From the NCBI GenBank assembly GCA_030710605.1, contig CP092874.1, positions 42,652,965 through 42,716,964 of the forward strand: a DNA stretch of 64,000 nt, written 5' to 3'. Each line of letters starts with the position of its first letter. Within the stretch, counting starts at the first letter, position 1. The stretch comes from Cordylochernes scorpioides. Its lineage: Eukaryota; Arthropoda; Arachnida; Pseudoscorpiones; Chernetidae. A program made the position numbers and the translations under genes. Shown here one piece after another: positions 1 to 54,231 of the stretch. The notes under the pieces are model-generated. The model was not told the origin of the DNA. It did no database searches and saw only the letters and a program-made list of their open reading frames with translations.

Positions 1-59
1 TTTAATTTTAAGAACTATGAATGCTGGCTAGGTAACCTCTGTCTTCATGAAAATGCTCC

Positions 60-480
60 AAAGAGATAGGTTTTATAAATATCACATATTATAAAATAGT
101 ATTAAATGAACAAGAGTGCCTTTCATACGTATATTGAATGAAGAAAAAAATCTATCTCCTTATCGTGCAACTGAAAGTTGCTGATGACTTACAATTCATT
201 TGCACAATAAAGAGATGCCATTTGTTCTTTATTAATCTATACACCTTATCCCAGTACTATTATCACATTTGTATCATTCTTTCAAACGTATATTAAGTAA
301 TATGAAAAAAAAAAGGCATCACCTTATCGTGCAACTGAAAGTTGCTGATGGCTTGCGATATCTATCGGAATAAATATAAACTATTTTCCTTGTTTTTTAA
401 TTTTAATGACGCAAGCCATCAGCCTTATGCACCTTGTCCCAGTACAATATTACATCTGTACTATATTTTTCGTGGAATGA
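60..480. repeat. Degenerate end fragments of the hammerhead element
   Basis: Two stretches near 155-250 and 315-475 carry the terminal block of the element seen at 3711-6095: the hairpin GCAACTGAAAGTTGC followed by TGATGGCTTGCG, and the block CACCTT(A/G)TCCCAGTAC. The second stretch also has the opposite-strand GCAAGCCATCAG near 413, so the pieces form a diverged inverted pair. No hammerhead core remains. The assignment rests on shared words and order; exact ends are uncertain. Confidence 0.6.
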
Positions 481-1596
481 TGTACTTTTAAATCTTCATC
501 TACTCAATATTTTTCAAGATTCTATTATTTCTCAATCTGTTTTCGCCTCTGACCACCAACTCACATATAGAATAGGATAGATGTTACAACTGTGCACAGT
601 GATAAATTAATAAATTTCCCTCTAAGATTGTCTAGGAATAGGACATCCAATTTACTTCTGACGTAGATAAATGAAGAATCCAAAAGGAATAAATAAATAA
701 ATGACTGCGGTTCTATTTATTTGTTGGCATAGTACCATCCATCAAAGACTGGGTGTCCAGGGTTTTTTTTTTATATATAATAATTTATTCAGTTCATAAA
801 TTTTTTATATATGTACCCTGCATGAAATGGTATTTTAAAATTTGTGAAATATCGTGATGTATTGAGGAATATTATGAAAATAGAGAAGGTTTGTGAAAAT
901 TTTATATATTTACAAAATAGAATATCGTGGTATATTTATGAACACACAACCTTTATAAAAATAGCTAACTATTTTAAAAGATAAAGATGCCTCACAAAAC
1001 ATCGAAGTACTAAGCACAAATTAAGCGAAATTTACAAAAAAAAAAAGCTAAATGAAGCGCAAAAATTGAAAAATAAAAATTAATTATGTTGAGAGTATAT
1101 CATGTAAATATACAAAATAATTTATAAAAGTAGGATATTTTGTGCTTAAAATAAGTAAAAGTACGAAATCAGAGGGATTAACACAAGTTAAAAAGAAATA
1201 ATAAAATTTTATAAATAGCGAAATATCGTCTCTAATATTAAGGAATAAAATACAAAATTAGTGAATGTCGTGCCAAATATAAATTGAAATTACAAAATTA
1301 ATGAGATATCAGGAAAAAAAAAAGAAAACATACATTTTTTGAATATGGTATAAAAATTTGAAACAAAACTTATAAAATTAGCAGAATATTCAATGTATTA
1401 AAAAGATAAAAGTAACTAATATAACCGATTGAGCAGCTATATCAATGTAGCCGATATCCAGGTAGATTACCACAGTTTACAAATGATCAATTTCATTTAA
1501 GGAAGAAACTTTTCTTTTAATCCAGCATATTTGTGTACAAGCTTTCCAACTCAATAGGTATTCTTTTAATGTAAATAATTAACCATATATATTTAT
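481..1596. other. AT-rich noncoding stretch
   Basis: No convincing gene is visible on either strand. The sequence is strongly A/T-biased, with short loosely repeated phrases such as TTGTGAAATATCG and TACAAAATTA between about 830 and 1400 that suggest a decayed low-complexity repeat. No mobile-element ends were recognised. Confidence 0.5.
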
Positions 1597-1792
1597 GTGA
1601 AAAATTAGTACAAATGTAATATTGTACTGGGATAAGGTGCATAAATTAAGAAAAAGGCTTCTTCTTATCGAGCAACTGAAAGTTGCTGATGGCTTGCGCC
1701 ATCTATCGGAATAAATATCAACTATTCTCGTTGATTTTTAATTATTCCAGAATTGGCCAAATACCCATTCTTGATTAATCAAGAAAAGCTAA

Positions 1793-1832
1793 CCACGGAC
1801 GCGTTTCGGGCTGTTGGCCCTTATCAGCGTGG
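1793..1832 (-). ncRNA. Hammerhead ribozyme, type I, G8-mutated copy
   Basis: On the minus strand the layout matches the plus-strand copies: stem I CCACG/CGTGG, core, stem II GGGC-CAACA-GCCC, GAAA, a two-base-pair stem III and GTC at the cleavage site. The conserved CTGATGA reads CTGATAA, so the base equivalent to G8, a catalytic residue of hammerheads, is A. This copy is predicted not to cleave. Confidence 0.8.
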
Positions 1833-2074
1833 TGCAAGCTGTACCTCAACGATTTATATTTTTGTTTAACGGGCTACTAACCAAAAGTAATGATTTTTGA
1901 GCCCATGCGCGATGTGAGGAGGCAAGGAATAGGGGTATGTAGCGGCAGGAGAAGACTCGCAGGGAAGTGGAAACGTTGGGAAAGCAGGGGAACAGCGCCT
2001 GGGAGAAGTGAGGCAGGGGTCCAGTAACCAGTAGAAGGTGGCGGGAGGAGTTGGAGGCGGAGGGTTTTTGAAGC

Positions 2075-3340
2075 CTAAAACGGGCGGGCCTTAGACTTCA
2101 GGATGGAGCAGATTGAGGCTCTCGCCTCGTGGTTGTCTGAGAGGCCTTTTTGGCAGCAGTTGGCGCATTTGGAAGTGTTCTGGTCAGCTCTGATTGGGCA
2201 GGAGCGGCCTTCATGGCCGTCTTCACCGCAGTGGAAGCACTTGGGAGCTCTGGAACAGTGGGTGGAGTTGTGGCCGAAGCCGCAACAGCGGAAGCAGACG
2301 CGGGCGCGGATGGACGCCTCGAAGTTGAGTATCACACCGTCAACCACGATTCTTCCGCGGTTGCCCAGGGCTCCAAAGGTCTTGAGGTCCACCTCGATGA
2401 AGGCGGTGCAGGTCCCGTTTCTGAGTGCAGAACGGTGCGCCACGCGCACCACTTTGTTCCCGGGGAGCTGGCTGACAGCGGCGGTTGCCAGGAAGGTCTC
2501 CTCGATTGTGGAATTGGAGGTCTCCTCATCCACTCTGAAGAGGCAGATTCTTGGCAGGAATTCCTTCTGCTGGCGGACCTTCATTCCCGTTAGCTTGCTG
2601 GCCAGGGAGGTGGTCACCTCAGGGATGATGTTGGGATTGCTGGAATGGAGGACCAGCTTCCCCTTGGTGCGCAGAGAGGCCCAAACACCTTGGGGTAGGG
2701 TGTGGGCAGCGCGGACAGCCTTGTAAATGTCCCTGGGGTCAGCCTGTGGGTCGTCAAAGACGACCACTGTGTGGGCCGCCGATCTTTCCCCCATGGAGGA
2801 CCACTTGGGCGGCCGCAGGCTTGGAGACGCGGGATGACGCAAGTTTGTTTGGACCTTTTAGGTTGGGTCTTTTTGCGGGCGGGTTGATAGCCTCAAGCTG
2901 CTTCCTCTTGGTTGCAACAGGAGCAGGCAGGGTGGAGGCAGGCTTGTCAGCAGGAGAAGGAGTGGCAGGCTTGGTGGGGTCAGTCTGGGAGCTTTGGCAG
3001 GCAGTCTGTGGCATGATTTCGTCCAGTTCCTTAAAGTACGCGAGGGTGCCAGAGAGGTTCTCTACCTCGGCAATGAGGGCCTTGATCTGCTCGTTCCGAT
3101 GGCTGGTGATATTCGTAATGATTTCGCACAGGCATTCTTGGGAGGTAGGATGAGGATAGCGTAATGCTTTCTCGACGTCCTTCATATAATCTCTATTCTC
3201 CGACTCTAATAGGGCAAGGGTTACGAGGGGCTCCTCGGCATTTTTCTTCTTCTGGGTTACGAGGGGCTCCTCGGCATTCTTCTTCTCCTGGGTTACGAGG
3301 GGCTCCTCGGCATTCTTCTTCTTCTTCTAAAGGGAGCCAT
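2075..3340 (-). pseudogene. Gag-like zinc-knuckle protein of the hammerhead element (broken copy)
   Basis: The reading frame starts at the minus-strand ATG at 3340, codes a Lys/Glu-rich repeated N-terminus, a Pro/Ala-rich linker with a basic patch (KRPNLKG), a central domain of about 150 residues and a cysteine-rich C-terminus, and stops at 2075. Two CCHC knuckles are clear (CFRCCGFGHNSTHC and CFHCGEDGHEGRSC), followed by a third Cys/His cluster (CANCC...H...C). This matches ORF1/gag proteins of Jockey-like LINEs, which bind element RNA. The frame is broken near 2790, where a run of five G replaces four in the sister copy, and again near the start codon. The sister copy keeps the frame at those places, so the lesions arose after duplication or are sequencing errors. 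No reverse transcriptase follows. Confidence 0.75.
3206..3325 (-). repeat. 36-bp coding minisatellite, three copies
   Basis: Three near-identical tandem units encode a 12-residue KKNAEEPLVTQE-type repeat at the N-terminus of the gag-like ORF. The plus-strand sister gene (about 4100-4172) has two. The acidic/basic repeat is low-complexity and its copy number is evidently labile. Confidence 0.7.
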
Positions 3341-3710
3341 GGTAGGGATGGAAAGTATGGTAAGTAGTAAGTATGGCCAGCCGGAGGTAAGTATGGTAAG
3401 TATGGTAAGTATAATAAGTATAGTACCTCAACGACCAAAAAAATTGGTCATTAAGGCATCCTGAAAAATCATGAAACGGGTAGTTAAGGCCAGAATTGCG
3501 TGAGAACGCTACACAATGTGAAAAATTAGTACAAATGTAATATTGTACTGGGTAAGGTGCATAAATTAAGAAAAAGGCTTCTTCTTATCGAGCAACTGAA
3601 AGTTGCTGATGGCTTGCGCCATCTATCTGAATAAATATCAACTATTCTCGTTGATTTTTAATTATTCTAGAATTGGCCAAATACCCATTCTTGATTAATC
3701 AAGAATTGCA

Positions 3711-3750
3711 CCACGCTGATGAGGGCCAACAGCCCGAAACGCGTCCGTGG
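3711..3750 (+). ncRNA. Hammerhead ribozyme, type I (intact core)
   Basis: Stem I is CCACG (3711-3715) with CGTGG (3746-3750). CTGATGA is at 3716-3722, stem II is GGGC-CAACA-GCCC (3723-3735) and GAAA is at 3736-3739. A minimal stem III AC/GT encloses GC, and the triplet GTC is at 3743-3745, so cleavage is predicted after 3745. A very short stem III is typical of hammerheads in animal retrozymes and Penelope-like elements, which usually need a dimer to cleave well. This copy sits exactly at the centre of the palindrome and lacks the outer AGCT helix on its 5' side. Confidence 0.88.
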
Positions 3751-4041
3751 TTAGCTTTTCTTGATTAATCAAGAATGGGTATTTGGCCAATTCTGGAATA
3801 ATTAAAAATCAACGAGAATAGTTGATATTTATTCCGATAGATGGCGCAAGCCATCAGCAACTTTCAGTTGCTCGATAAGAAGAAGCCTTTTTCTTAATTT
3901 ATGCACCTTATCCCAGTACAATATTACATTTGTACTAATTTTTCACATTGTGTAGCGTTCTCACGCAATTCTGGCCTTAACTACCCGTTTCATGATTTTT
4001 AAGGATGACTTAATGACCAATTTTTTTGGTCGTTGAGGTAT
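3711..4041 (+). repeat. LTR-like hammerhead unit 1
   Basis: First of three direct repeats of the hammerhead element. It shares its whole length with 5561-5890, including the closing GGTCGTTGAGGTA, then diverges where the gag-like body begins (CCCCGCTGGCC). Confidence 0.8.
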
Positions 4042-4086
4042 CCCCGCTGGCCATACATACTACTTACCATACTTTCCATCCCTGCC

Positions 4087-5315
4087 ATGGCTCCCTCTAG
4101 GAAGAAGAAGAAGAATGCTGAGGAGCCCCTCGTAACCCAGGAGAAGAAGAATGCCGAGGAGCCCCTCGTAACCCTCGCCCTATTAGAGCTGGAGCATAGC
4201 CAGTTTATGGAGGACGTCGAGATAGCATTACGCTATCCTCATCCTATCTCCAAGAATGCCTGTGCGAAATCATTACGAATATCACCAGCTCACGGAACGA
4301 GCAGATCAAGGCCCTCATTGCCGAGGTAGAGAACCTCTCTGGCACCCTCGCGTCCTTTAAGGAACTGGACGAAATCATACCACAGACTGCCTGCCAAAGC
4401 TCCCAGACTGACCCCATCAAGCCTGCCACTCCTTCTCCTGCTGACAAGCCTGCCTCCACCCTGCCTGCTCCTGTTGCAACCAAGAGGAAGCAGCTTGAGG
4501 CTCTCAACCCGCCCGCAAAAAGACCCAACCTAAAAGGTCCAAACAAACTTGCGTCATCCCGCGTTTCCAAGCCTGCGGCCGCCCAAGTGGTCCTCCATGG
4601 GGAAAGATCGGCGGCCCACACAGTGGTCGTCTCTGACGACCCACAGGCTGACCCCAGGGACATTTACAAGGCTGTCCGCGCTGCCCACACCCTACCCCAA
4701 GGTGTTTGGGCCTACCTGCGCACCAAGGGGAAGCTAGTCCTCCATTCCAGCAATCCCAACATCATCCCTGAGGTGACCACCTCCCTGGCCAGCAAGCTAA
4801 CGGGAATGAAGGTCCGCCAGCAGAAGGAATTCCTGCCAAGAATCTGCCTCTTCAGTGTGGATGAGAAGACCTCCAATTCCACAATCGAGGAGACCTTCCT
4901 GGCAACCGCCGCTGTCAGCCAGCTCCCCGGGAACAAAGTGGTGCGCGTGGCGCACCGTTCTGCACTCAGAAACGGGACCTGCACCGCCTTCATCGAGGTG
5001 GACCTCAAGACCTTTGGAGCCCTGGGCAACCGCGGAAGAATCGTGGTTGACGGTGTGATCCTCAACTTCGAGGCGTCCATCCGCGCCCGCGTCTGCTTCC
5101 GCTGTTGTGGCTTCGGCCACAACTCCACCCACTGCTCCAGAGCTCCCAAGTGCTTCCACTGCGGTTAAGACGGCCATGAAGGCCGCTCCTGCCCAACCAG
5201 AGCTGACCAGCACACTTCCAAATGTGCCAACTGCTGCCAAAAAGGCCTCTCAGACAACCACGAGGCGAGAGCCTCAATTTGCCCCATCCTGAAGTCTAAG
5301 GCCCGCACGTTTTAG
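4087..5315 (+). pseudogene. Gag-like zinc-knuckle protein of the hammerhead element (right copy)
   Basis: The start is the ATG at 4087, just after unit 1; the frame would end at the TAG at 5313-5315, about 409 codons. The N-terminus is basic with two KKNAEEPLVT repeats, followed by a helical segment, a Pro/Thr-rich linker, the central domain and the zinc knuckles (CFRCCGFGHNSTHC, then CFHCG). Two lesions are visible by comparison with the minus copy: loss of one C near 4247, which shifts frame, and a G-to-T change making TAA at 5166-5168 inside the second knuckle. The protein resembles ORF1/gag of Jockey-group LINEs. Its position between hammerhead repeats suggests it packages hammerhead RNA; that is inference. 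GC content is clearly higher than the surroundings. Confidence 0.75.
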
Positions 5316-5550
5316 GCTTCAAAAAACCCTCCGCCTCCAACTCCTCCCACCACCTTCTACTTGTTACTGGACCCCTGCCTCACTTCTCCCAGGCGCTGTT
5401 CCCCTGCTTCCCCAACGTTTCCACTTCCCTGCGAGTCTTCTGCTGCCGCTACATACACCTATTCCTTGCCTCCTCACATCGCGCATGGGCTCAAAATCAT
5501 TACTTTTGGTTAGTAGCCCGTTAAACCACATATAAATCGGTCGTTGAGGT
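5316..5550 (+). other. Pyrimidine-rich trailer of the hammerhead element
   Basis: This stretch is rich in CCTCC/CTTCC tracts and shows no ORF. It is present in both arms (about 1850-2070 on the minus strand). It ends in TCGGTCGTTGAGGTA, the boundary that precedes each hammerhead. Confidence 0.6.
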
Positions 5551-5560
5551 ACAGCTTGCA

Positions 5561-5600
5561 CCACGCTGATGAGGGCCAACAGCCCGAAACGCGTCCGTGG
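5561..5600 (+). ncRNA. Hammerhead ribozyme, type I (intact core)
   Basis: CTGATGA at 5566-5572, the same stem II, GAAA and GTC as the 3711 copy; cleavage is predicted after 5595. Here stem I can extend: AGCT upstream (5553-5556) can pair with AGCT downstream of TT, leaving an internal loop TGCA/TT that could provide the loop contacts hammerheads use. Confidence 0.88.
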
Positions 5601-5899
5601 TTAGCTTTTCTTGATTAATCAAGAATGGGAATTTGGCCAATTCTGGAATAATTAAAAATCAACGAAAATAGTTGATATTTATTCCGATAGATGGCGCAAG
5701 CCATCAGCAACTTTCAGTTGCTCGATAAGAAGAAGCCCTTTTCTTAATTTATGCACCTTATCCCAGTACAATATTACATTTGTACTAATTTTTCACATTG
5801 TGTAGCGTTCTCACGCAATTCTGGCCTTAACTACCCGTTTCATGATTTTTCAGGATGCCTTAATGACCAATTTTTTTGGTCGTTGAGGTATAGCTTGCA
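5561..5899 (+). repeat. LTR-like hammerhead unit 2 (339 bp to next hammerhead)
   Basis: A complete unit from one hammerhead core to the next, 339 bp. Together with unit 3 it forms a tandem hammerhead dimer, the arrangement expected if the RNA circulates as multimers or circles before reverse transcription. Confidence 0.8.
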
Positions 5900-5939
5900 C
5901 CACGCTGATGAGGGCCAACAGCCCGAAACGCGTCCGTGG
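5900..5939 (+). ncRNA. Hammerhead ribozyme, type I (intact core)
   Basis: Third plus-strand copy with an unaltered core; CTGATGA is at 5905-5911 and cleavage is predicted after 5934. It heads a unit truncated at about 6095, shortly after the GCAACTTTCAGTTGC hairpin. Confidence 0.88.
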
Positions 5940-6095
5940 TTAGCTTTTCTTGATTAATCAAGAATGGGTATTTGGCCAATTCGGGAATAATTAAAAATCA
6001 ACGAGAATAGTTGATATTTATTCCGATAGATGGCGCAAGCCATCAGCAACTTTCAGTTGCTCGATAAGAAGAAGCCTTTTTCTTAATATATATTT

Positions 6096-6689
6096 ATGTT
6101 ATAAAAAAATGTTATTTTATTTTAAAATTATAACTTTTAGTACAAACACTACTCTATAAAGTCGACCGCCAGATGCCACGGCTTTCCCTATATAAATCTA
6201 TTGTTGTTGTTTCCCGTTGGCCAGCTCAAAATATTTTTAATTATGTAAATACGTCTTTTTTTTTTATTCTCTACTCGCCTTAAGTCAGGTAGTACTTTCT
6301 CAATTGTGAACTCAATGCTTCATTAGCACAATTAAAGCAAATTTTGATTCAAAGTTGATTTCATTTTATTTTACAAGACTACATAGAAATACCATGTTAC
6401 TCGTGTATCCTCAAAATAATCATCATCAGCAAATAAATAATTTTATATCTCAATAATATTCTAAAATCAGCAGAAAATATTTATAATATATATAAAGAAA
6501 ATCACAAAACTCCATTCAATTCTCTTTAGTATATAATCTATTATATTAATAAGAGAATACACACATGTAGAAGGTGAATCAAGTTAGAAAGCTTTTATAA
6601 ATACTCATTTAATATGAGAACAATGTTATGCACTATAGGTACTATAAATTTGCAAGTCTTTGATGTCGCCGGTTCTATTTTTTTTAAGG
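6096..6689. other. Noncoding AT-rich spacer
   Basis: No gene or recognised repeat. It contains long A/T tracts and a poly-T run near 6257. Confidence 0.5.
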
Positions 6690-6785
6690 CGACAGAGACA
6701 TTTTTGTTCACACTTGGTTATCAAGTGTTTCTTCAATAAGGGTCACTGTAAATCAAATATCTTTCAGAGTTATTGTCCCGATATA
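6690..6785 (+). repeat. Left half of a short repeat split by a mariner
   Basis: The words TTTTTGTTCACA, TTGGTTATC and TCTTCAATAA...GTCACTGT recur uninterrupted at 35575-35650. The right half resumes at 8106-8147 (ATAACTTCCTTTAGTTTTGTCCATGAGT). At 35506-35706 the whole has inverted ends around CTCATGGACAAA, so it is probably a Tc1-type MITE. Confidence 0.65.
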
Positions 6786-8105
6786 CGAAGTGTGTTCAAA
6801 AAGTATCGGAATTTTGAATTTTCGCGGGTTACGTATATTCGAATTTCGATCTTTTTGTGGCTTTATGTTGGTACTCATGTCTCTCACTTATGCCGACATG
6901 CTCGGCCATTTTGAATGTTCACTTAATTGTTGACAGCTGCTTTGCTTTCAGGTGTTTTGGATCGTCTTCGATTTTTACCTATTAAAAAAATGGATCAAAG
7001 AACCTGTATCAAATTTTGTGTGAAAAACGAAATTAAGTGCGCGGATGCATTCCGAATGTTGACTGTGGCATACGGAGAAGCTACCTTGGACCGAATCAAC
7101 GTTTATCGGTGGTACAAAATGTTCTCAGAAGGCCGAGAAGATGTGAACAACGAAGAGCGTGCCGGACGCCCGAGCACTTCAACAACAGACGAAATAATTA
7201 ATGAAGGGGAGAAAATGATATTGGCCAATCGTCGAATCACCGTTAGAGAAGTTGCTGAGGACCTAAACATATCGATTGGCTCGTTCCATTCGATTTTCAT
7301 CAATGATTTGGGCATGAGACGGGTCGCCGCGAAATTCGTACCAAAATTGCTCAATTGCGACCAAAAACAGCATCGCATGAACATTGCTAATGAGATGTTG
7401 GACTCTGTCGGCGACGATCCAAATTTGCTCCAGAGGGTCATAACTGGTGACGAAGCGTGGGTTTATGGTTATTACGTGGAAACCAGAGCTCAATCATCTC
7501 AATGGAAGCTGCCGCACGAACCAAGACCGAAAAAAGCGCGCCAAGTTCGGTCGAATGTGAAAGTTTTGCTGACAGTTTTCTTCGATTGCAGGGGCGTGGT
7601 GCATCGTGAGTTCTTGCCACAGGGTAGAACGGTCAATAAGGAATATTACCTGCAAGTTATGCGCAAATTGCGCGAAGCAATCCGCCAGAAACGCCCGGAT
7701 TTGTGAAAGAACAAAAATTGGCTTTTGCACCACGATAACGTCCCTGCTCACACATCGTTGCTTGTGCGCAACTTTTTGGGCAAAAACAACACACTAATAA
7801 TGCCGCAGCCACCGTATTCTTTAGATCTGGCCCCCTGTGGCTTTTTCTTGTTCCCTAAACTGAAGAGGCCCATGAAAGGACGACGTTACGCTACGCTTGA
7901 CGAGATAAAGATGGCATCGAAGGAGGAGCTGAAAAATATTTTTAAAAATGATTTTTTGAAGTGCGTCGAAGATTGGAAAAACCGTTGGCACAAGTGTATA
8001 ATATCTCATGGGGATTACTTTGAAGGGGACAAAATAGGTATTCATGAATAAATAAATAATTTTTGAAAAAACACAAAAGTCGCGATACTTTTTGAACACA
8101 CCTCG
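6786..8105 (+). mobile_element. Mariner transposon (1320 bp)
   Basis: The ends GTGTGTTCAAAAAGTATCG and its inverse at 8082-8101 form terminal inverted repeats. The element is flanked by TA on both sides (6784-6785, 8106-8107). The length is typical of mariners. It interrupts the repeat at 6690-8147; the related sequence at 35.6 kb shows the empty site with a single TA. Confidence 0.92.
6990..8051 (+). pseudogene. Mariner transposase, one nonsense codon and lost catalytic Asp
   Basis: The frame from the ATG at 6990 to the TAA at 8049-8051 would code 353 residues, full length for a mariner transposase. The N-terminal paired-type HTH region and the motifs ITGDEAWV (first Asp), HHDNVPAHTS (second Asp) and the third-Asp region are visible. 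One in-frame TGA at 7704-7706 interrupts the frame, at a position that is Trp in relatives. The third catalytic residue, Asp in the usual APSDY-type motif, is Gly here (APCGFF). The enzyme is therefore dead twice over although the frame is otherwise intact. Confidence 0.9.
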
Positions 8106-8263
8106 TACATGTTAAAAACTATAACTTCCTTTAGTTTTGTCCATGAGTGTATATATAAATAGATGGAAATTCTCCAAGCAGGAAATTGATCTATAAAAGC
8201 AAATGTTGCCTCTCCCGACAAAATACACGTCAAAACTAGAGGTCATCTATTGACCTTCACCGC

Positions 8264-8363
8264 NNNNNNNNNNNNNNNNNNNNNNNNNNNNNNNNNNNNN
8301 NNNNNNNNNNNNNNNNNNNNNNNNNNNNNNNNNNNNNNNNNNNNNNNNNNNNNNNNNNNNNNN
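8264..8363. other. Assembly gap (100 N)
   Basis: Exactly 100 N, the conventional size for a gap of unknown length. The apparent ORF reading through it has no meaning. Confidence 0.99.
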
Positions 8364-8389
8364 AGATTTTATTATTTCCATATAACCCA

Positions 8390-9290
8390 ACACAAAGAGC
8401 TGCAAAATATTGGTAGATAGTATAATACATGGCAGCTTATATAAAACATGAGGTAACTGCCTTCTCTCTTGTATTAGGTCACAATCCTTGCTCAATGTGG
8501 CGCCCTTCATTCTCAAACACCGCCTGCAGACGATAGATGACAGAATGGTCAGCATTAAATAATATTTCTGTTGAAATTTATAAAACGTGCCATCTTATAG
8601 AAGCCTTCAACATGGCCAATGTGGTAGGCCGGCATCGATAAACACGGGACTTAATGTACCCCCATAACCGAGAATGTAAGGCGTCAAGTCTGTAATATTA
8701 GAGGCCAATGGTATATAAAGTGGCGACTTATCCCACGATCTTCACCGAACGTATCCTTCAGCATTGATTTTTTCAAAGAATCAAGTGGCGTTTTGAATGT
8801 TAAATTCTACCTTTAGTGAAAAGTGAGCATCATCTGTCCACAGAACATTCGACAGCCAGTTTTCATCAATATCAATTTGCCGGAAAACCCATTCAGCGAA
8901 TTCTTGACGCTTCTCAAAATCTCTGACTTCAACTCGTGAAAACTTTGAATTTTATTTGGGTATTTTTTAGGAAAAGTCTGTGTGTTCTCTCCAAACTGTT
9001 CCATACGAAATCCCCGTTTGTTGAGAAACTTGTCGAGTACTTACTTCTCCATACGTGGATAACGTTTCAATAGCTTCAACATTCTGAAAACCGTAACAGC
9101 CACTGACTTGCATGTCGATGGTCTTCCACTCCGAGGTTTCGCTTCCAGAGATCCAGTTTCCTCAAAATTTTTAATCATTCGCTTTAGAGAGTAGCAACTC
9201 ATGGGTCTTTTACCGCTTCGAATATCTTTAAAGGAACGAAACGCTCGTAAAGCTTCAGTGGCAGATTCTGAATAGCAATAAAAGAAAATT
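8390..9290 (-). pseudogene. Decayed IS630/Tc-like transposase (minus)
   Basis: Read on the minus strand in changing frames, the region gives an N-terminal HTH-like segment (RPMSCYSLKRMIKNFEETGS), then VSTRQVSQQTGISYGTVWR, a linker, and a DDE-type motif (VLWTDDAHFSLK). Farther on are TDLTPYILGYGGTL-type residues that correspond to the SPDLTPxDFxLWGxLK motif of these transposases, and a C-terminal helix. This is the arthropod IS630-Tc relative often annotated as DD37-like. Many frameshifts and stops are present. The C-terminal end runs towards the gap at 8264-8363. No TIRs were found. Confidence 0.65.
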
Positions 9291-9450
9291 CACCAAGAGT
9301 GCTTAATTCTGTAGCAACGGCATTCCAGGGGGGGGGGGGGAGGTAAGTCCGACCACACCTGCTTGCGGTGTCCCCTGAACCCTTGGAATATTTGACCAAA
9401 TTCTGGTTTGTTTCCAAGGTGACTAACGTGGCAACGGCACCCATATTCCA

Positions 9451-11183
9451 ATGAAGAGCAAAACCGATATATTCAGTAATGCTACCGCGTCCGGGGTAAC
9501 CGCCGCGTCAGGAGCTGCAGCCCGGGCTCCTGATGTGAAATCTACTACGAGGACACAATTGAACCTATTACAGCTCAATATAAATGGCACCCAGAGGAAA
9601 ACTGAAGAGCTGACTTGTCTTCTCCGTGACAACAATGTACATATTGCTTGTCTTCAGGAGACAAAATTGAATCAGAATCTGAGATTCAATATCAAAGGTT
9701 ATACAACACTACGAAAGGTAGACCGGGAAAATTTGGAGGAGGACTTGCCTTTTTGATTAAAACTCTAGAAATCAAATTTAATGAAATCGCCTATAATAAG
9801 AGTGAGCCTAAAGAAAGCACGACAGAAGCTCAGGCAATAGAAATCTATATCCCAGATAAAATAATAACAAACCAAAATGTTTATCACCTCGATAATACTA
9901 GCATCAATACAGGCCTGATAGAGACATTAAGTGAAGCGTCTTCGGATATCACAATCATACTCGGTGATTTTAACGCCAAAAGTCCAACTTGGGGTCACCT
10001 GTCCAGGATAAAAAAGGTCAGCAGGTTGAGGATATGTTAACCGACCTCTACCTTACACCGTCAAATAACGAAAAGAACACCTATCTATCCAAGTCCACAG
10101 GAACATAATCCGAAATGGGCATCACAACGATAAATTACAACATCGCACCCACAACACAATGGAAAATCCTGAAAAGTGGAATCAGTGACCATAGACCAAT
10201 TTTAACAACCCTAAACTTCAAAATTGAGAATGTCCAACAGAATAAAAGAACACTGGAAAATAATTCAAAGAAAAGCTTGAAGAACTGTGCAACGAAGAAT
10301 TAAATCACAGAACGATTGACAAAAACTTGGAAAAATAATCTTCGAACATATCCAAAGCTGAAAAAGCATCGATAACTAGAGGTAGACGTGAAGACCTGTG
10401 AAAACCTTACTGGAAGGACCACAACATCGAGGTAATGATTGCAGAGAGAGACAATATCAATGAACTTCTTAAAACAAATAAAACAGAAGAAACATAAAGG
10501 AACTCATTGAAATTAGTCACAAAATAGAACAAGAAATTTGGATATTCAAACAAGAAAAATGGCAGAATTCTGCGAAAAAATGGATCCAAGAAAGGACAGC
10601 CAACACTGGAATATAATTAGATTGTTATAAAACAATTAAAACCAACACTAATCCTCCAAAACTCTAACCGATATGAATAGAACAGCGAGAACGAAGAAAC
10701 AGATGGCTGACATAATTGCTGAATATCTTTCAAGCACTTCTCAGACTCAGCTATACGAATGAAGACAGGACTCTAAAAATAATATAAACAAGTTAGTTGA
10801 AAAAGCAAGAAATTATCATCAACAAGATATTTACTCGAGAGAGACTTCACACTGAATGAGATAAACTCATCAATAGAAAAGTTAAATCCAAGAGGTCACC
10901 AGGAGATGATCTAATCTTTTGTCAAATCTTTGAAGACAAATCTAAAAATCAACTCCTACGAATACTGAACATTTCATGGCAAACTGGTTCTACTTCTGCC
11001 AATCAATAATAGATTATTTCCAGGAAAAACCGCCAAAGAAGTCAACGGCTATATTCCTGGATATGACCTCAGCTTTTGATCGAGTGTAGAGGGAGAAATT
11101 ATTTGAAAGGCTGCACAACATCGGAGTAAAAGGAAAAATCTTAATCTGGATTTCAGACTTCTTAAGGGGAAGAAGGATAAAGG
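9451..11183 (+). pseudogene. LINE ORF2 fragment (endonuclease plus partial RT), Jockey/R1-like
   Basis: The start reads into an apurinic-type endonuclease: LNLLQLNINGTQRK, then IACLQETKL, and after a frameshift near 9715 GGGLAFLIK and IILGDFNAKSPTWG, the GDFN catalytic motif. The RT part is shredded by stops; a recognisable piece is MTSAFDRV followed by LHNIGVKGKILIWISDFLRG near 11060-11170. It ends abruptly at the truncated 5' LTR of Gypsy-1, so the junction reflects insertion plus deletion. There is no functional product. Confidence 0.8.
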
Positions 11184-11299
11184 AAAAATATATGTGTATA
11201 TAAATTGGAAATTTGTTGTAGGCAAAAGGTGAAGAATAAGAGCTAAATAAAGAGTCATGGTCAAGTTCGAGCTGTTGTACGTCTAATTACGACACAACA
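11184..11299 (+). repeat. Gypsy-1 5' LTR, truncated
   Basis: It matches the last ~115 bp of the 3' LTR (16255-16366): TATATGTGTATATAAATTGG, GTCATGGTCAAGTT, TTGTACGTCTAATTA and the closing ACACAAC. The first ~55 bp are missing at the junction with the LINE. The bases that follow, AGTCGCGACGAGGATG, lie where a tRNA primer-binding site is expected; I cannot assign the tRNA with certainty. Confidence 0.8.
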
Positions 11300-11426
11300 A
11301 AAGTCGCGACGAGGATGCGGGATCTACAGAGCCAGTAAAAATCTGAGAAAAACGGCGTCTACGCAAGTATAACTAATACATCTTTGAAACTATCTGGATA
11401 AAAAAAAAGGAGTAGAAAAGATCAGC

Positions 11427-12150
11427 ATGACAAGTTCAAAGTTAAGAGTACCTTTTAAATGCTATAGTCCAGTGGAGGATATTTTAGATCTTTTTGTACA
11501 CAAATTTGAGGCTTCCTTTATGGCGAATGATCTGAAGGAGGAGAATAAAGTGCCGATTTTTACCTTGCTACTAGATTCTGAAACTTTGAAACTGGGAAAT
11601 TACTTTTCTTCCCGGCCTAATGAAAGATCAACCCTATGATATTATCTTTCAAATAATTAAGCTGCATTTGGATCCAAAAAAGAAAGTGATACCACAGCGA
11701 TGCATATTTTTGAAGAAAATTCAACAGGAAGGAGAATCAAATTCGGAATATCTTAGAGAATTGAAACATTTAGCAATAAATAGTAATTTCGGCGATATGC
11801 TGGGAACCAAGTTGCGAGACCGTTTTGTGGCTGGAATCAAGTCGGAAAGCTGCAAAAGAAGCTACTACAAGAGGACGACGATGTCACCCCGGATAAAGTT
11901 TTTTTTGCAGTGGCGATCTCGTTCGAACTGGCGGAGATAAATATAAGAGAATTACAAGATAAATTAGTGGCCAAGATATCCCCTGTGAATGAAAAGGATA
12001 AAAAGGGTGAGTACAATAATAGTACGGCGCAGCATAGGCCTTTCAGGCAAAGTGGCAAAGGTAAAATAGTGTGTTATAGATGTGGTGAAAGACATTCACA
12101 CGTGGCATCTGTTTTGCCTCAAAGAACAAAGACTTGTTTTAAAATGTAAT
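11427..12150 (+). pseudogene. Gypsy-1 gag remnant
   Basis: The ATG at 11427 opens a gag reading frame (FKCYSPVEDILDLFVHKFEA) that shifts near 11625 and continues as a capsid-like segment (FLKKIQQEGESNSEYLRELK). A further shift near 11910 leads to a truncated zinc knuckle (CYRCGERHSH) with no final Cys in place. At least three frame breaks exist. It belongs to a Ty3/gypsy element with short LTRs. Confidence 0.75.
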
Positions 12151-50430: not shown

Positions 50431-50499
50431 AGAGACCGAGACTGGAGGTAAGACCGCTTACGAGAAAGTAGAAATCCTCCCCCTATTATAACTGCTAAC

Positions 50500-51270
50500 A
50501 TGAAACGGAACTACGTTGTTATCATCATAAATGGACAGAATGTTGAAGCCTTAGTCGATTCTGAAGCCGATTATTCCGTAATCTCGGAAAGTTTTCGGCG
50601 ATATTTGAAAATTCCGTTCTTTGCAGAAAAAGGGCCTGTACTGAGTGTCGCCAATAGGAAGCATATCGAAACTCTGGGGCGCTGCAACTTAAAAGTGTCG
50701 ATTGAAGAACTTGAGATTTATTTTACTTTTGTTGTCTTCTCTGAATGTAGCCATCACATAATCCTTGGTCTTGATTTCTTTCGAGCCACAAGTGCAGTGA
50801 TTGATTGTGGAAGAGGTGAAATACATTTGAAGGAAAGTGTGAACGACGGCCTAGAAGAAGATCTGCCTACACATGCATTAGAAGACTGTTTTATTCCAGC
50901 TCGCTCAATTAAGAAAATCACTGTAATTAACGAAGAGATTCGAGGCGGAAAAGATCTAAAGATAGAAGGAAGCAAAGATCTCATCTTAAAAAAAGAATTG
51001 GTCATACCATCATTCATAATTAACTTCCATCACGGCAGAGGGGAGATATGGGTAACTAATGGGACTTTTCAGAATCAAATAATCCCAGCTCGTATGCTTG
51101 TAGGATACTTGAGGAAATTTGGAAGTAGCGGAATCTACAATGTTGACACAGCTGAAGACGTTAAAACTCAATCAAACATTAAGAGTGAGGATAGACGCCA
51201 ACAAATCTTATCTCTGGTAGACGAGAGATTAGATAAAGAACAAAAGTCAATGATTGCAGAATGTCTATAA
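50500..51270 (+). pseudogene. Gypsy-2 aspartic protease
   Basis: 256 open codons. ALVDSEADYSVIS stands where DTGADYSVIS-type active sites occur; Asp is kept but TG is SE. ECSHHIILGLDFFRATSAVI is the second conserved block. Predicted inactive. The linker to RT ends at a TAA at 51268-51270. Confidence 0.85.
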
Positions 51271-51326
51271 AAGTACTCGGAGGTTTTTGATTTTGAGAGA
51301 GAAAATCATTCAGTACAACCTCCAAT

Positions 51327-52340
51327 GTGAAACATAAAATCGACACCTCAGACAGCCGTCCTATTAAACAACGACCATACCGGGTGTCTCCTGTCGAAAG
51401 ACGAGCTATACAAAATGAAGTCGATAAAATAATAAAGATGGGAATTGTACAACCGTCCGAAAGTCCTTTGTCGTCTCCAGTAGTTCTGGTTAAAAAGAAA
51501 GATGAGTCCTGGAGATTTTGAGTAGACTACCGAAAGCTTAACAAGGTCACCAAAAAGGATGTGTATCCGTTACCTAGAAATGATGATGTTTTGGATAGCT
51601 TAACAGGAGCTAAATTCTTTTCCAGCATGGACCTACGTACAGTATACTGGCAGAGAGAAATCGACGAGAAAGATCGGGAAAAGACAGCTTTCATCACCCC
51701 TGATGGCTTATATGAGTTCCGGGTGATGCCCTTCGGTCTATGCAACGCACCGGCAACATTCGAAAGAATGATGGACAAGCTACTAGCAGGATTGAAATGG
51801 ACAATTTGTCTTTGTTATTTAGGCGATATAATTGTTTATGCTACATCCTTTAAAGAACATATTGAATTATAAAACTATTTTTGAGGCGTATTATTCTTTT
51901 TAAAATAAAACAATTTCTACTGTCCTTACTGCGATGAAAAAATTAAAGGGAGGGCCTGGCTCATCAGTGGTGAACCCTCCCAGCGGTTTCGCCAGTTTAA
52001 TCTACCATGGTAGATTAAACTGGCGAAACCGCTGGGAGGGTTCACCACTGATGAGCCAGGCCCTCCCTTTAATTTTTTCATCGCAGTAAGGACAGTAGAA
52101 ATTGTTTTATTTTAAAAAGAATAATACGCCTCAAAAATAGTTTTATAATTTGATAACAGATGGCGCTCTAGTACATCGTAACATATTGAATGTCTAGGGA
52201 AAGTTCTCAGATGCATCCAGCAAGCAGGCTTGTGTATTAATCATGAGAAGTGCCGTTTTGGGTCATAGAAATCAAAGTGTTGGGACATCTGGTTACAGAA
52301 AGCGGCATTCGCCCTGATCCCGACAAAATTGAGGTGATTA
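51327..52340 (+). pseudogene. Gypsy-2 reverse transcriptase, interrupted
   Basis: PIKQRPYRVSPVERRAIQNE, GIVQPSESPLSSPVVLVKKK, a TGA just after WRF, VDYRKLNKVTKKDVYPLPR, FSSMDLRTVYWQREI, FRVMPFGLCNAPATF and CYLGDIIVYA. The active-site YLDD reads YLGD, so polymerase is dead. At 51867 the frame is entered by the palindrome insertion and resumes at 52190 (CIQQAGLCINHEKCRF). Confidence 0.88.
51867..52179. mobile_element. Palindromic short element in Gypsy-2 RT
   Basis: 313 bp between two copies of AACATATTGAA (51856-51866 and 52180-52190), an 11-bp target duplication. 51865-52150 is a perfect 286-bp palindrome centred on CCATGG at 52005-52010. Only the right end extends beyond it (TGATAACAGATGGCGCTCTA and a few more bases). 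Each arm contains CTTACTGCGATGAAAAAATT, CCTGGCTCATCAGTGGTGAA and CCCTCCCAGCGGTTTCGCCA. No ORF. Single arms or imperfect pairs occur at 18790, 27545, 38480 and 42209. Confidence 0.88.
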
Positions 52341-53029
52341 CAAATTTCTCGACTCCAAAAACAGCAACTGAAGTAAGAAGCTTCATGGGATTGTGTTCAT
52401 ATTACAGGCGATTTGTGAAAGATTTTGCAAATAAAGCAAAGCCGTTACACGACCTTCTGAGGAATAACGTGAAGTACTTTTGGTCTAACGAACAAGAACA
52501 ATCTTTCCAAATATTAAAATCAGCCCTAACTACCGATCCTGTGCTTGGCCATTTTAAGGAAGATGCTGAGACACTTGTACATATCGACGCGAGTGGATAT
52601 GGCGTCGGACCAGTGTTGACCCAACTGGTAGAAGGAAAAGAAAAGCCTATCGCCTATGCATCAATAACCCTTAACGCCGCAGAAAAAAATTATTCCACGA
52701 CGGAGAGGGAATGCCTGGCTGTAGTTTGGGCCATTTACAAGTTCAGACCATATTTGTTTGGAAAACACTTCACCGTCGTCTCCGACCATCATTCCCTATG
52801 TTGGCTAGCTAATGTAAAGGATCCATCGGGAAGGCTAGCCAGATGGGCCTTGCGACTTCAAGAGTTCGACATATCTATTGTGTATAAGAATGGTAAAAGA
52901 CACCAAGATGCGGATTGCCTCTCAAGAAGTCCTCTCCCCCAATCCAACGAAGATAACATACCAGAATTGTCTTCAATTACCGACATAAGAAAAGAGCAAA
53001 GAAGCGATGTCCAGACAAAAAGAAAATAA
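52341..53029 (+). pseudogene. Gypsy-2 RNase H
   Basis: Open frame with ATEVRSFMGLCSYYRRFVKD (connection), TLVHIDASGYGVGPVLTQ, STTERECLAVVWAIYKFRPY, VVSDHHSLCWLANVKD and HQDADCLSRSPLPQ: all four acidic RNase H positions are present. The frame ends at 53027-53029; integrase continues in another frame. Confidence 0.88.
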
Positions 53030-53106
53030 TTCAGGAAATTGATTCCAAAAGTGAAAGTGGATACAAAATAATCGACGGCATCCTCTACCGCAAAAACTAC
53101 GATCCC

Positions 53107-54231
53107 ATGGGCAAACCTTGGCTCTTAGTAGTGCCCAAACAAATGAGGGTTGACATTTTGAGGGAAGCCCACGATGCACCAATGGCGGGACACCTGGGAT
53201 TTGCAAAAAGATACGACCGCATTAGAAGAAAATATTTCTGGCCAGGCTTGCATAGATCTGTGCGACAATATGTGGCTCATTGTCGAGAATGTCAACGGCG
53301 AAAAGGTTCTACCGAACGTCCACCAGGACAACTTGTGCCAATTCCGCCGGTTGCACGACCTTTTCAGAAAATAGGGATAGATTTGTTAGGAAGATTCCCT
53401 ACCTCGAACGATGGCAATAAATGGACCGTAGTCGCGACAGACTATCTAACAAGGTATGCTATGACCAAAGCCATACCAAATGGAAGTTCGGAAGAAGTAG
53501 GAAAATTTATAGTAGAAGACGTGATCCTTAAACATGGAGCCCCCAGAGAATTGATTTCAGACCGAGGTCGAACGTTTATATCTCACACAATACGGGAGAT
53601 TAAAAACCTCTGTGGAACCGTACATCGCTTTACATCTGCCTACCACCCCCAAACAAATGGCCTGACCGAGAGACTCAACAAGACACTTGGCGACATGTTG
53701 TGTATGTATGTTGACGTAGACCAAAGAAACTGGGACTCGGTTCTCCCCTACGTAACTTTTGCCTATAACACCGCCAAAGGGGAAACCACTGGGTTTAGCC
53801 CTTTCTATCTTGTACACGGACGCGATGTCGAGACCCCATTGGACACCATCCTGACGTATAGAGAAGAAGCTAATCTGGAAGACTACGTGGAGTGTTTGAT
53901 GACAAATGCCGAGGACGCACGCCAGCTGGCCCGTTTGAACATTTTGAAGGCGCAAGAAAAAGATAAATCTCGATACGACAAAAGCCACAAACCTGTCCAG
54001 TACCGTGTGGAAGACCTTGTGTGGGTGTATACACCTGTGCGTAAACAAGGACTGTCGGAGAAGCTACTTAAAAGATACTTCGGCCCCTATAAAGTTGTGA
54101 GACAACTGTCTGAAGTAACTTATGAAGTAGAGGCCTTGGAGAGGAGACCCCGACAGCGGAATATCAAAGACATCGTCCACGTCCTGCGGATGAAACCATA
54201 CAGAAGCCCAGAAGAACAAACACAGGACTGA
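53107..54231 (+). pseudogene. Gypsy-2 integrase (open, 374 codons)
   Basis: The longest open frame in the window. Zinc-binding part: His22, His29, Cys59, Cys62 (AGHLGFAKRYDRI, AHCRECQRRK). Catalytic triad: Asp92 (IGIDLLGRF), Asp152 (LISDRGRTF), Glu188 (NGLTERLNKTL), with 35 residues between the last two as in retroviral-type integrases. A chromatin-tether-like C-terminus ends VLRMKPYRSPEEQTQD. All integrase residues are intact. It is listed as a pseudogene because gag, PR and RT upstream are broken. Confidence 0.9.

Follow-up and report, generated by a model that had tools for sequence, protein, structure and literature searches.

The stretch analysed here, referred to as the window, comprises 64,000 nucleotides of the genome of the pseudoscorpion Cordylochernes scorpioides (2.62 Gb, 24 contigs), in which L-numbers below denote loci. 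Positions 1595-6091 of the window form a head-to-head palindrome whose minus arm spans 1595-3705 and whose plus arm spans 3706-6091, and either arm consists of hammerhead ribozyme repeats with a gag-like cassette, here called gag1, between them (Table 1). The minus and plus halves are 90-100% complementary, and the outer ends of the palindrome are flanked by a 14-letter match, indicating that the palindrome is a single insertion. A preliminary description of this DNA had recognised the plus half and missed the minus half, with its second gag copy, repeat pieces and damaged hammerhead. Together with the genome survey below, the locus very probably reflects two nested retroelement layers, a hammerhead retrozyme (a small repeat without a protein of its own) and gag1, a site-preferring long interspersed nuclear element (LINE) with only the first open reading frame (ORF1), such that the window holds one retrozyme palindrome struck twice by gag, once in each arm.

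Table 1. Retroelement features of the window (positions are those of the window; monomer positions refer to the 339-bp repeat).
Feature	Position	Strand	Details
Older head-to-head retrozyme insertion	307-471	both arms	minus 95-190, plus 194-239; one A and one B end
Left target duplication of whole palindrome	1585-1598		14-letter match, perhaps including letters of the element end
Retrozyme copy, outer minus-arm end	1595-1837	-	monomer positions 1-243, ending at site B; damaged hammerhead CTGATAA at 1827
3' copy of 11-bp duplication	1842-1852	-	TCGTTGAGGTA; flanks minus-arm gag insertion
gag1 LINE-like insertion, subfamily m	1853-3423	-	open reading frame pieces 2075-2857 and 2754-3326, two frames
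5' copy of 11-bp duplication	3424-3434	-	TCGTTGAGGTA
Retrozyme copy	3424-3705	-	about monomer positions 53-335; 5'-truncated at head-to-head junction
Retrozyme copy	3706-4040	+	hammerhead intact, its core starting at 3711; cleavage predicted after 3745
5' copy of target duplication	4030-4040	+	TCGTTGAGGTA
gag1 LINE-like insertion, subfamily p	4041-5540	+	broken open reading frame pieces 4009-4329 and 4200-5168
3' copy of target duplication	5541-5551	+	TCGTTGAGGTA
Complete 339-bp retrozyme monomer	5556-5894	+	hammerhead intact; cleavage predicted after 5595
Retrozyme copy cut at site A	5895-6091	+	aligns to positions 1-197; hammerhead intact; cleavage predicted after 5934
Right target duplication of whole palindrome	6086-6099

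The three intact type I hammerhead cores of the preliminary description were recovered on the plus strand (CTGATGA at 3716, 5566 and 5905), each heading one copy of the same repeat (3706-4040, 5556-5890 and 5895-6091), with cleavage sites predicted by eye. The direct repeats themselves, given there as about 335 bp, were likewise confirmed, with a complete monomer of 339 bp. By eye, helix III has at most two base pairs and the core reads GAAACGCGUC, which is the minimal Penelope-like form rather than a classical type I hammerhead with helix III. A minimal helix III has been described for Penelope hammerheads (PMC7761336). No Rfam family reached its gathering score in the window; on positions 1-12000 two of the hammerheads matched RF02275 (Hammerhead_HH9; E 0.003 and 0.0045) with scores of 27.1 and 26.5 bits, far under the gathering score of 52. 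A whole-genome search with RF00163 gave no match here nor in 14 controls, and is therefore uninformative on absence. Compared with shuffled sequences, the monomer folds with z = -8.2, and the hammerhead alone is not outstanding (z = -1.1).

A genome search with a 335-bp query of the repeat gave 990 candidate places, a lower bound for the repeat in 2.62 Gb, and the 40 that were scored contained 122 matches. The hammerhead core motifs are kept in 47 of 65 distinct copies that include the monomer start (L001-L034 and the window). Many loci are retrozyme-only arrays; L037, for example, holds 17 near-complete and two partial monomers in 7 kb, and its array runs past the stretch read. Like animal retrozymes, the element thus carries a type I hammerhead in small tandem repeats without an ORF, and its earlier assignment to the Penelope/retrozyme type of hammerhead element stands. 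In L023, positions 347-1185, adjoining a retrozyme insertion, hold another tandem family that has diverged (68-75% identity to the retrozyme; period about 351 bp).

Outer array ends lie mostly at one of two monomer sites 48 nt apart, site A (…TTTTTCTTAA, about 190-192) or site B (…TTTTTCA, about 239-241), and each of the 19 independent loci with both outer ends in these windows pairs an A end with a B end. Loci that are duplicates or overlap (L022/L027, L031/L032, L009/L010/L015, L018/L045 and L024/L050) were counted once; L024/L050 would have been a twentieth locus, its A end lying 1.2 kb away. The count leaves out single-armed loci and the additional ends that neighbouring copies contribute in L014, L033 and L043. 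The flanks of the 19 loci match over 4 to 18 letters (median 12, element-end and TA-repeat letters included), which exceeds the matches of re-paired flanks (permutation p 5e-5); 18 of the 19 match over at least 7 letters, as against 43% of mismatched pairs. The insertion flanks are 83% AT. For the older insertion at 307-471 the flanks were compared and no duplication was found. In mid-array, 5'-5' junctions fall at many monomer positions. A junction at the hammerhead cut, suggested by a minus arm that seemed to begin at position 41, immediately past the cut, was rejected as an artefact of the self-complementary helix I.

In common with Penelope-like elements, the retrozyme has inverted arms, AT-rich target duplications and two fixed ends, one of which bears a tail. 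An ORF with reverse transcriptase (RT) and GIY-YIG domains between the repeats was found neither in the window (Pfam) nor, by eye, in the ORF lists of L033, L034, L042, L036 and L045; the ORFs between the window repeats contain no RT domain, in line with the preliminary description. An RT within the element was considered for L031/L032, where about 5.9 kb of extra sequence proved to be a nested Gypsy long terminal repeat (LTR) element (L031 2417-7429, and in L032) within a gag1/retrozyme locus; L031 and L032, about 31 kb apart, look like duplicates of one locus.

A Penelope-like element was met by chance in L076, with a GIY-YIG domain at 22.9 bits (Pfam cut-off 22.6). Searching the genome with it gave 2706 candidates, and among the 40 scored the best copies are 95-99% identical, at least 10 of them lying in opposite pairs. 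By eye, all four loci read (L076, L107, L108 and L109) are head-to-head, with one short end and the other about 30 nt longer, and have direct repeats at their flanks; in L108 a retrozyme adjoins the Penelope copy, and its ends likewise lie at 197 and 246. The protein database lists further Penelope-type proteins of C. scorpioides, some with RVT_1 and GIY-YIG. This abundant GIY-YIG element (L076 2646-3563, L107-L109) carries a hammerhead-like CTGTAGA..CGAAA near its end. L076 and L077 also contain a mariner-like and a Tc1-like transposase ORF, which by eye seem to be unrelated neighbours.

In published Penelope elements, cDNA starts at two adjacent internal sites and both strands of AT-rich DNA are cut (PMC11167929), and one of the inverted pseudo-LTRs (pLTRs) carries a 31-bp tail, with duplications of 8-10 bp (9 bp in one example; PMC3846280). 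Given the architecture that retrozyme and Penelope element share in one genome, Penelope machinery is very probably the mover of the retrozymes, as has been proposed for animal retrozymes (PMC7229834), the enzyme being assigned by signature only. LINE RTs have also been proposed for animal retrozymes in that source, and both layers occur together here, so that the retrozymes might instead be moved by LINE machinery, with the gag LINE merely sharing the RT. We consider this very unlikely: the head-to-head signature with one end of each kind is that of the Penelope element of this genome at four of four loci, it also fits published Penelope elements (PMC11167929, PMC3846280), and the LINE junctions that were read end at their own 3' untranslated region (UTR), without an inverted arm of their own.

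Turning to the cassette, the preliminary description had reported a gag-like ORF with two zinc knuckles. Its gag-like character holds, and the frame is not open: the plus-strand copy is split over two frames and its second knuckle is interrupted by an in-frame TAA at 5166, and the minus-strand copy is broken by a frame change. Three CCHC-like motifs are visible by eye, one of which Pfam detects under its cut-off, and no Pfam family scored above its cut-off for gag1. The 3' UTR of the plus-arm copy, with GGGCT..AGCCC, reaches about 5536.

At the gag1 loci compared, the cassette occupies one monomer position in one orientation, with TCGTTGAGGTA on both sides (L033 excepted, see below). Private variants of these 11 bp are repeated on both sides in L034, L053/L065, L056/L068 and around the gag2 cassette of L045 (see below). 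The 5' ends of gag1 differ between most copies, and the few nucleotides between its 3' UTR and the site also vary among copies. On the 5' side, which was reached in eight of nine site copies of a first set, six of the eight carry the duplicate. Further insertions are stacked at the regenerated site in L064, L073 and L065, and also, by eye, behind L086, L089 and L103. The two gag1 copies of the window differ at 57 positions and 86 gap columns; at the differing positions L062/L074 and the first L064 copy mostly match the minus arm (subfamily m). The remaining 11 copies match the plus arm (subfamily p) at their 3' ends, and the two arms were thus hit independently.

A genome search with the 3' part of the cassette returned 1219 candidates, of which 40 were scored (41 places, one partial). 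Among these 40 best-scored copies, ranked by similarity to a query that itself ends in the site, which favours site copies and copies without a second ORF (ORF2), 29 end at the TCGTTGAGGTA site: the window copy, nine of 12 and 19 of 27. A hammerhead then follows in 16 of these 19, and what appears to be another gag element in three. The other 11 of the 40 lie outside the site; L054/L066 and L057/L069 have 9-11-bp duplications of other sequences there, and reading both sides of L058/L070 revealed no duplication. Overall, gag1 has the features of a non-LTR element, i.e., target duplication, variable 5' end, constant 3' end and no LTR (exceptions L033, L074 and L075), and, as in target-specific LINEs, it has inserted repeatedly at one position of a repeated target. 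Read from these junctions, gag1 is an abundant family in which LINE-type insertion into a single favoured target has occurred many times independently.

The preliminary description had proposed a third layout of hammerhead element, a gag-only unit that borrows its RT, in which the repeats serve as pseudo-LTRs and the whole moves together. Such a composite could account for the first cassettes seen lying at the same monomer position and orientation, for the outer target duplication of the window that encloses both gags, and for a 5' start common to three copies, and Penelope pLTRs can carry foreign cargo in trans, as with a non-ribosomal peptide synthetase (NRPS) gene in a rotifer (PMC3846280). 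A single multi-copy composite family was suggested by four loci sharing the repeat, and was overturned by the 11-bp duplications and the end survey. The duplications copy private target variants, the 5' ends mostly differ, copies are stacked, two subfamilies occupy one palindrome, the gags are mostly much older than the repeats around them, and 11 of 40 copies are off-site. The composite is therefore contradicted at most loci read, and we regard it as highly improbable; the need for an RT in trans holds for both layers. The outcome that had been set against it was an unrelated LINE that inserted once and left no shared junctions; here the copies do have junctions in common, because gag1 insertion is site-preferring.

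Site preference might also be an effect of abundance, if gag LINEs inserted anywhere and retrozymes were merely common. The 11 off-site copies, and a gag2 copy that sits at a different position in the repeat (L036), would agree with this. With 29 of 40 copies at one position, repeated stacking at the regenerated site, and the repeat found at 990 candidate places (as a lower bound) in 2.62 Gb, this explanation is scarcely credible.

The gag1 protein is conserved and under purifying selection. Searching the genome with it gave 15,286 loose first-look candidates; among the 147 scored, 129 have no stop in the matched stretch and 18 have one, a count that excludes frame changes. The ratio of nonsynonymous to synonymous divergence (dN/dS) is 0.20-0.38 in six pairs from different loci, with dS of 0.37-0.53 in four of the six 0.24 for L034 versus L042 and 0.04 for L034 versus L031; a value of 0.54 was obtained for the two broken copies of the window. 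Repeats surrounding these gags differ by 2-5%. Most gag pairs have diverged far more than this, and most gag lineages therefore predate the retrozyme copies in which they lie. The gag end of all 40 best-scored copies passes straight into the 3' UTR, with no ORF2, endonuclease or RT there; as noted, the ranking favours such copies, and ORF2-bearing relatives may exist.

Profile comparison aligned gag1, mainly over the knuckles, with ORF1 of the Jockey/X-element type (probability 96.8, E 2.2e-10), making gag1 by sequence a distant relative of Jockey-type LINE ORF1, and a search of PDB sequences matched only around the knuckles. A coiled coil and folds like the RNA recognition motif (RRM) may be present, according to a low-confidence structure model (mean predicted local distance difference test score, pLDDT, 46). 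All six gag1 relatives listed in the protein database are from C. scorpioides. Annotated protein models P0001-P0006 join gag1 pieces to integrase, synaptobrevin and RNase H, and these joins are probably annotation artefacts.

Other LINEs also use the site. The second cassette, gag2, is a Jockey-type ORF1 (PRE_C2HC, E 1.4e-9) resembling tandem RRM proteins, followed by an apparent ORF2 start (by eye) and then a 3' UTR; it lies at the gag1 site in L045, whereas the L036 copy is elsewhere in the repeat and has an 11-bp duplication of its own. The site in L038, which there reads TCGCTGAGTTA, is occupied by a LINE end that shares the 3' UTR and has ORF2 similarity (25.9%, E 2e-7), and another LINE end with an ORF2-like stretch (by eye) is at the site in L065. 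The LINEs of L038 and L065 are candidate donors of RT and endonuclease for gag1.

Several observations weigh against the two-layer reading, in addition to the ranking of the 40 copies and the low confidence of the structure model. With respect to the retrozyme, arms end outside both windows in L026/L051 (at 174), L059 (173), L042 (128) and L040 (289), none of which is among the 19 loci, no retrozyme-like sequence was found within the Penelope element read, and the hammerhead-like stretch of that element has a non-canonical core. With respect to gag1, the 3' side of L033 does not match and there are no matching duplicates at its gag site, L074 and L075 are without the 5' copy of the duplication, and L093 and L094 may be one duplicated locus. 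The window plus copy, L064 and L065 have a common 5' start, TCCCCGCTGG, as is expected of full-length copies, and gag1 5' UTRs carry variable ATACTTACC-type repeats. The gags of L031 and L034 are close (dS 0.04), so that, with the common 5' starts, not every gag1 copy shows independence alone. Among the loci read, no complete ORF2-bearing LINE was found at the site.

We propose the following mechanism. In the first layer, the 339-nt type I hammerhead retrozyme would be transcribed as multimers, and a Penelope-like RT/GIY-YIG protein would copy it into AT-rich DNA. The two strands of the target would both be cut and would prime on retrozyme RNA, one at site A and the other at site B; enzyme and priming are proposed because the same signature is seen in the Penelope element of the genome. 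The two cDNAs would then join head-to-head, leaving a duplication of about 8-14 bp, in keeping with the observed ends, arms and duplications. In the second layer, the ORF1-only, LINE-like gag1, which codes for an RNA-binding protein, inserts in sense at TCGTTGAGGTA with the 11-bp duplication seen at its junctions. As no ORF2 is seen in gag1, RT and endonuclease would be borrowed, with gag1 moved in trans by a LINE of the same target preference, and the gag1 protein may bind its own RNA. More speculatively, the downstream hammerhead might trim LINE transcripts, leaving them with a tail matching their next target.

Two other transposon remnants lie in the window. A mariner/Tc1-type transposase, broken in two frames (6927-8051; Transposase_1 E 5e-19, HTH_48), adjoins the palindrome, and Gypsy-like pol pieces with protease-, RNase H- and integrase-like ORFs (by eye) occupy 50452-54231.

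The two layers can be placed beside known systems. Animal non-LTR retrozymes are genome-scattered tandem repeats of a few hundred nucleotides that contain a type I hammerhead and encode no protein (Cervera and de la Pena 2020, PMC7229834; PMC7761336). The element described here is likewise small and noncoding; unlike animal retrozymes, it has almost no helix III, as in Penelope elements, is mostly head-to-head with two fixed ends, and its monomer is the target of a gag-only LINE. It resembles Penelope-like elements in its hammerhead repeats, inverted copies, AT-rich targets, 8-10-bp duplications and optional 30-40-bp tail on one end (PMC11167929, PMC3846280). By contrast, the retrozyme is without an RT/GIY-YIG ORF, its two starts are about 48 nt apart, and the ORF between its repeats is a LINE gag that arrived by another route.

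As for gag1, recurrent insertion at one repeat position, constant orientation, stacked copies and target duplication are features that it has in common with target-specific LINEs such as R1, R2, TRAS and SART. The gag1 target, however, is a self-cleaving mobile repeat, the preference is partial (29 of 40), and the surveyed copies have ORF1 only. HeT-A (of the Jockey clade) and HAL1 are gag-only LINEs whose ORF1 is kept under selection without an RT, as in gag1. Unlike these, gag1 homes to retrozymes, is not known to be telomeric, and has relatives only in this species among six matches. The top-ranked titles and abstract openings of the literature, with few subscription papers among them, included neither a hammerhead repeat as a LINE target nor a gag-coding retrozyme, and likewise no gag-only LINE homing to a Penelope-type retrozyme.

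It is conceivable, if rather unlikely, that gag LINEs exploit the ribozyme of their target for RNA 3' ends and homing. The insertion lies 15 nt upstream of the next monomer, so a LINE transcript would continue through TCGTTGAGGTACAGC to the hammerhead. Cleavage about 55 nt beyond the LINE end would then give the RNA a uniform 3' tail, able to pair with the nicked primer strand at any other monomer of the retrozyme. If this were true, a self-cleaving parasite would provide 3'-end formation and homing to a second parasite that brings only gag. More broadly, the head-to-head Penelope signature with two ends offers genome evidence on which enzyme moves animal retrozymes, and a hammerhead repeat serves as a preferred target of gag-only LINEs that keep their protein under selection without a polymerase, so that RT sharing and ribozyme-made RNA ends become testable.

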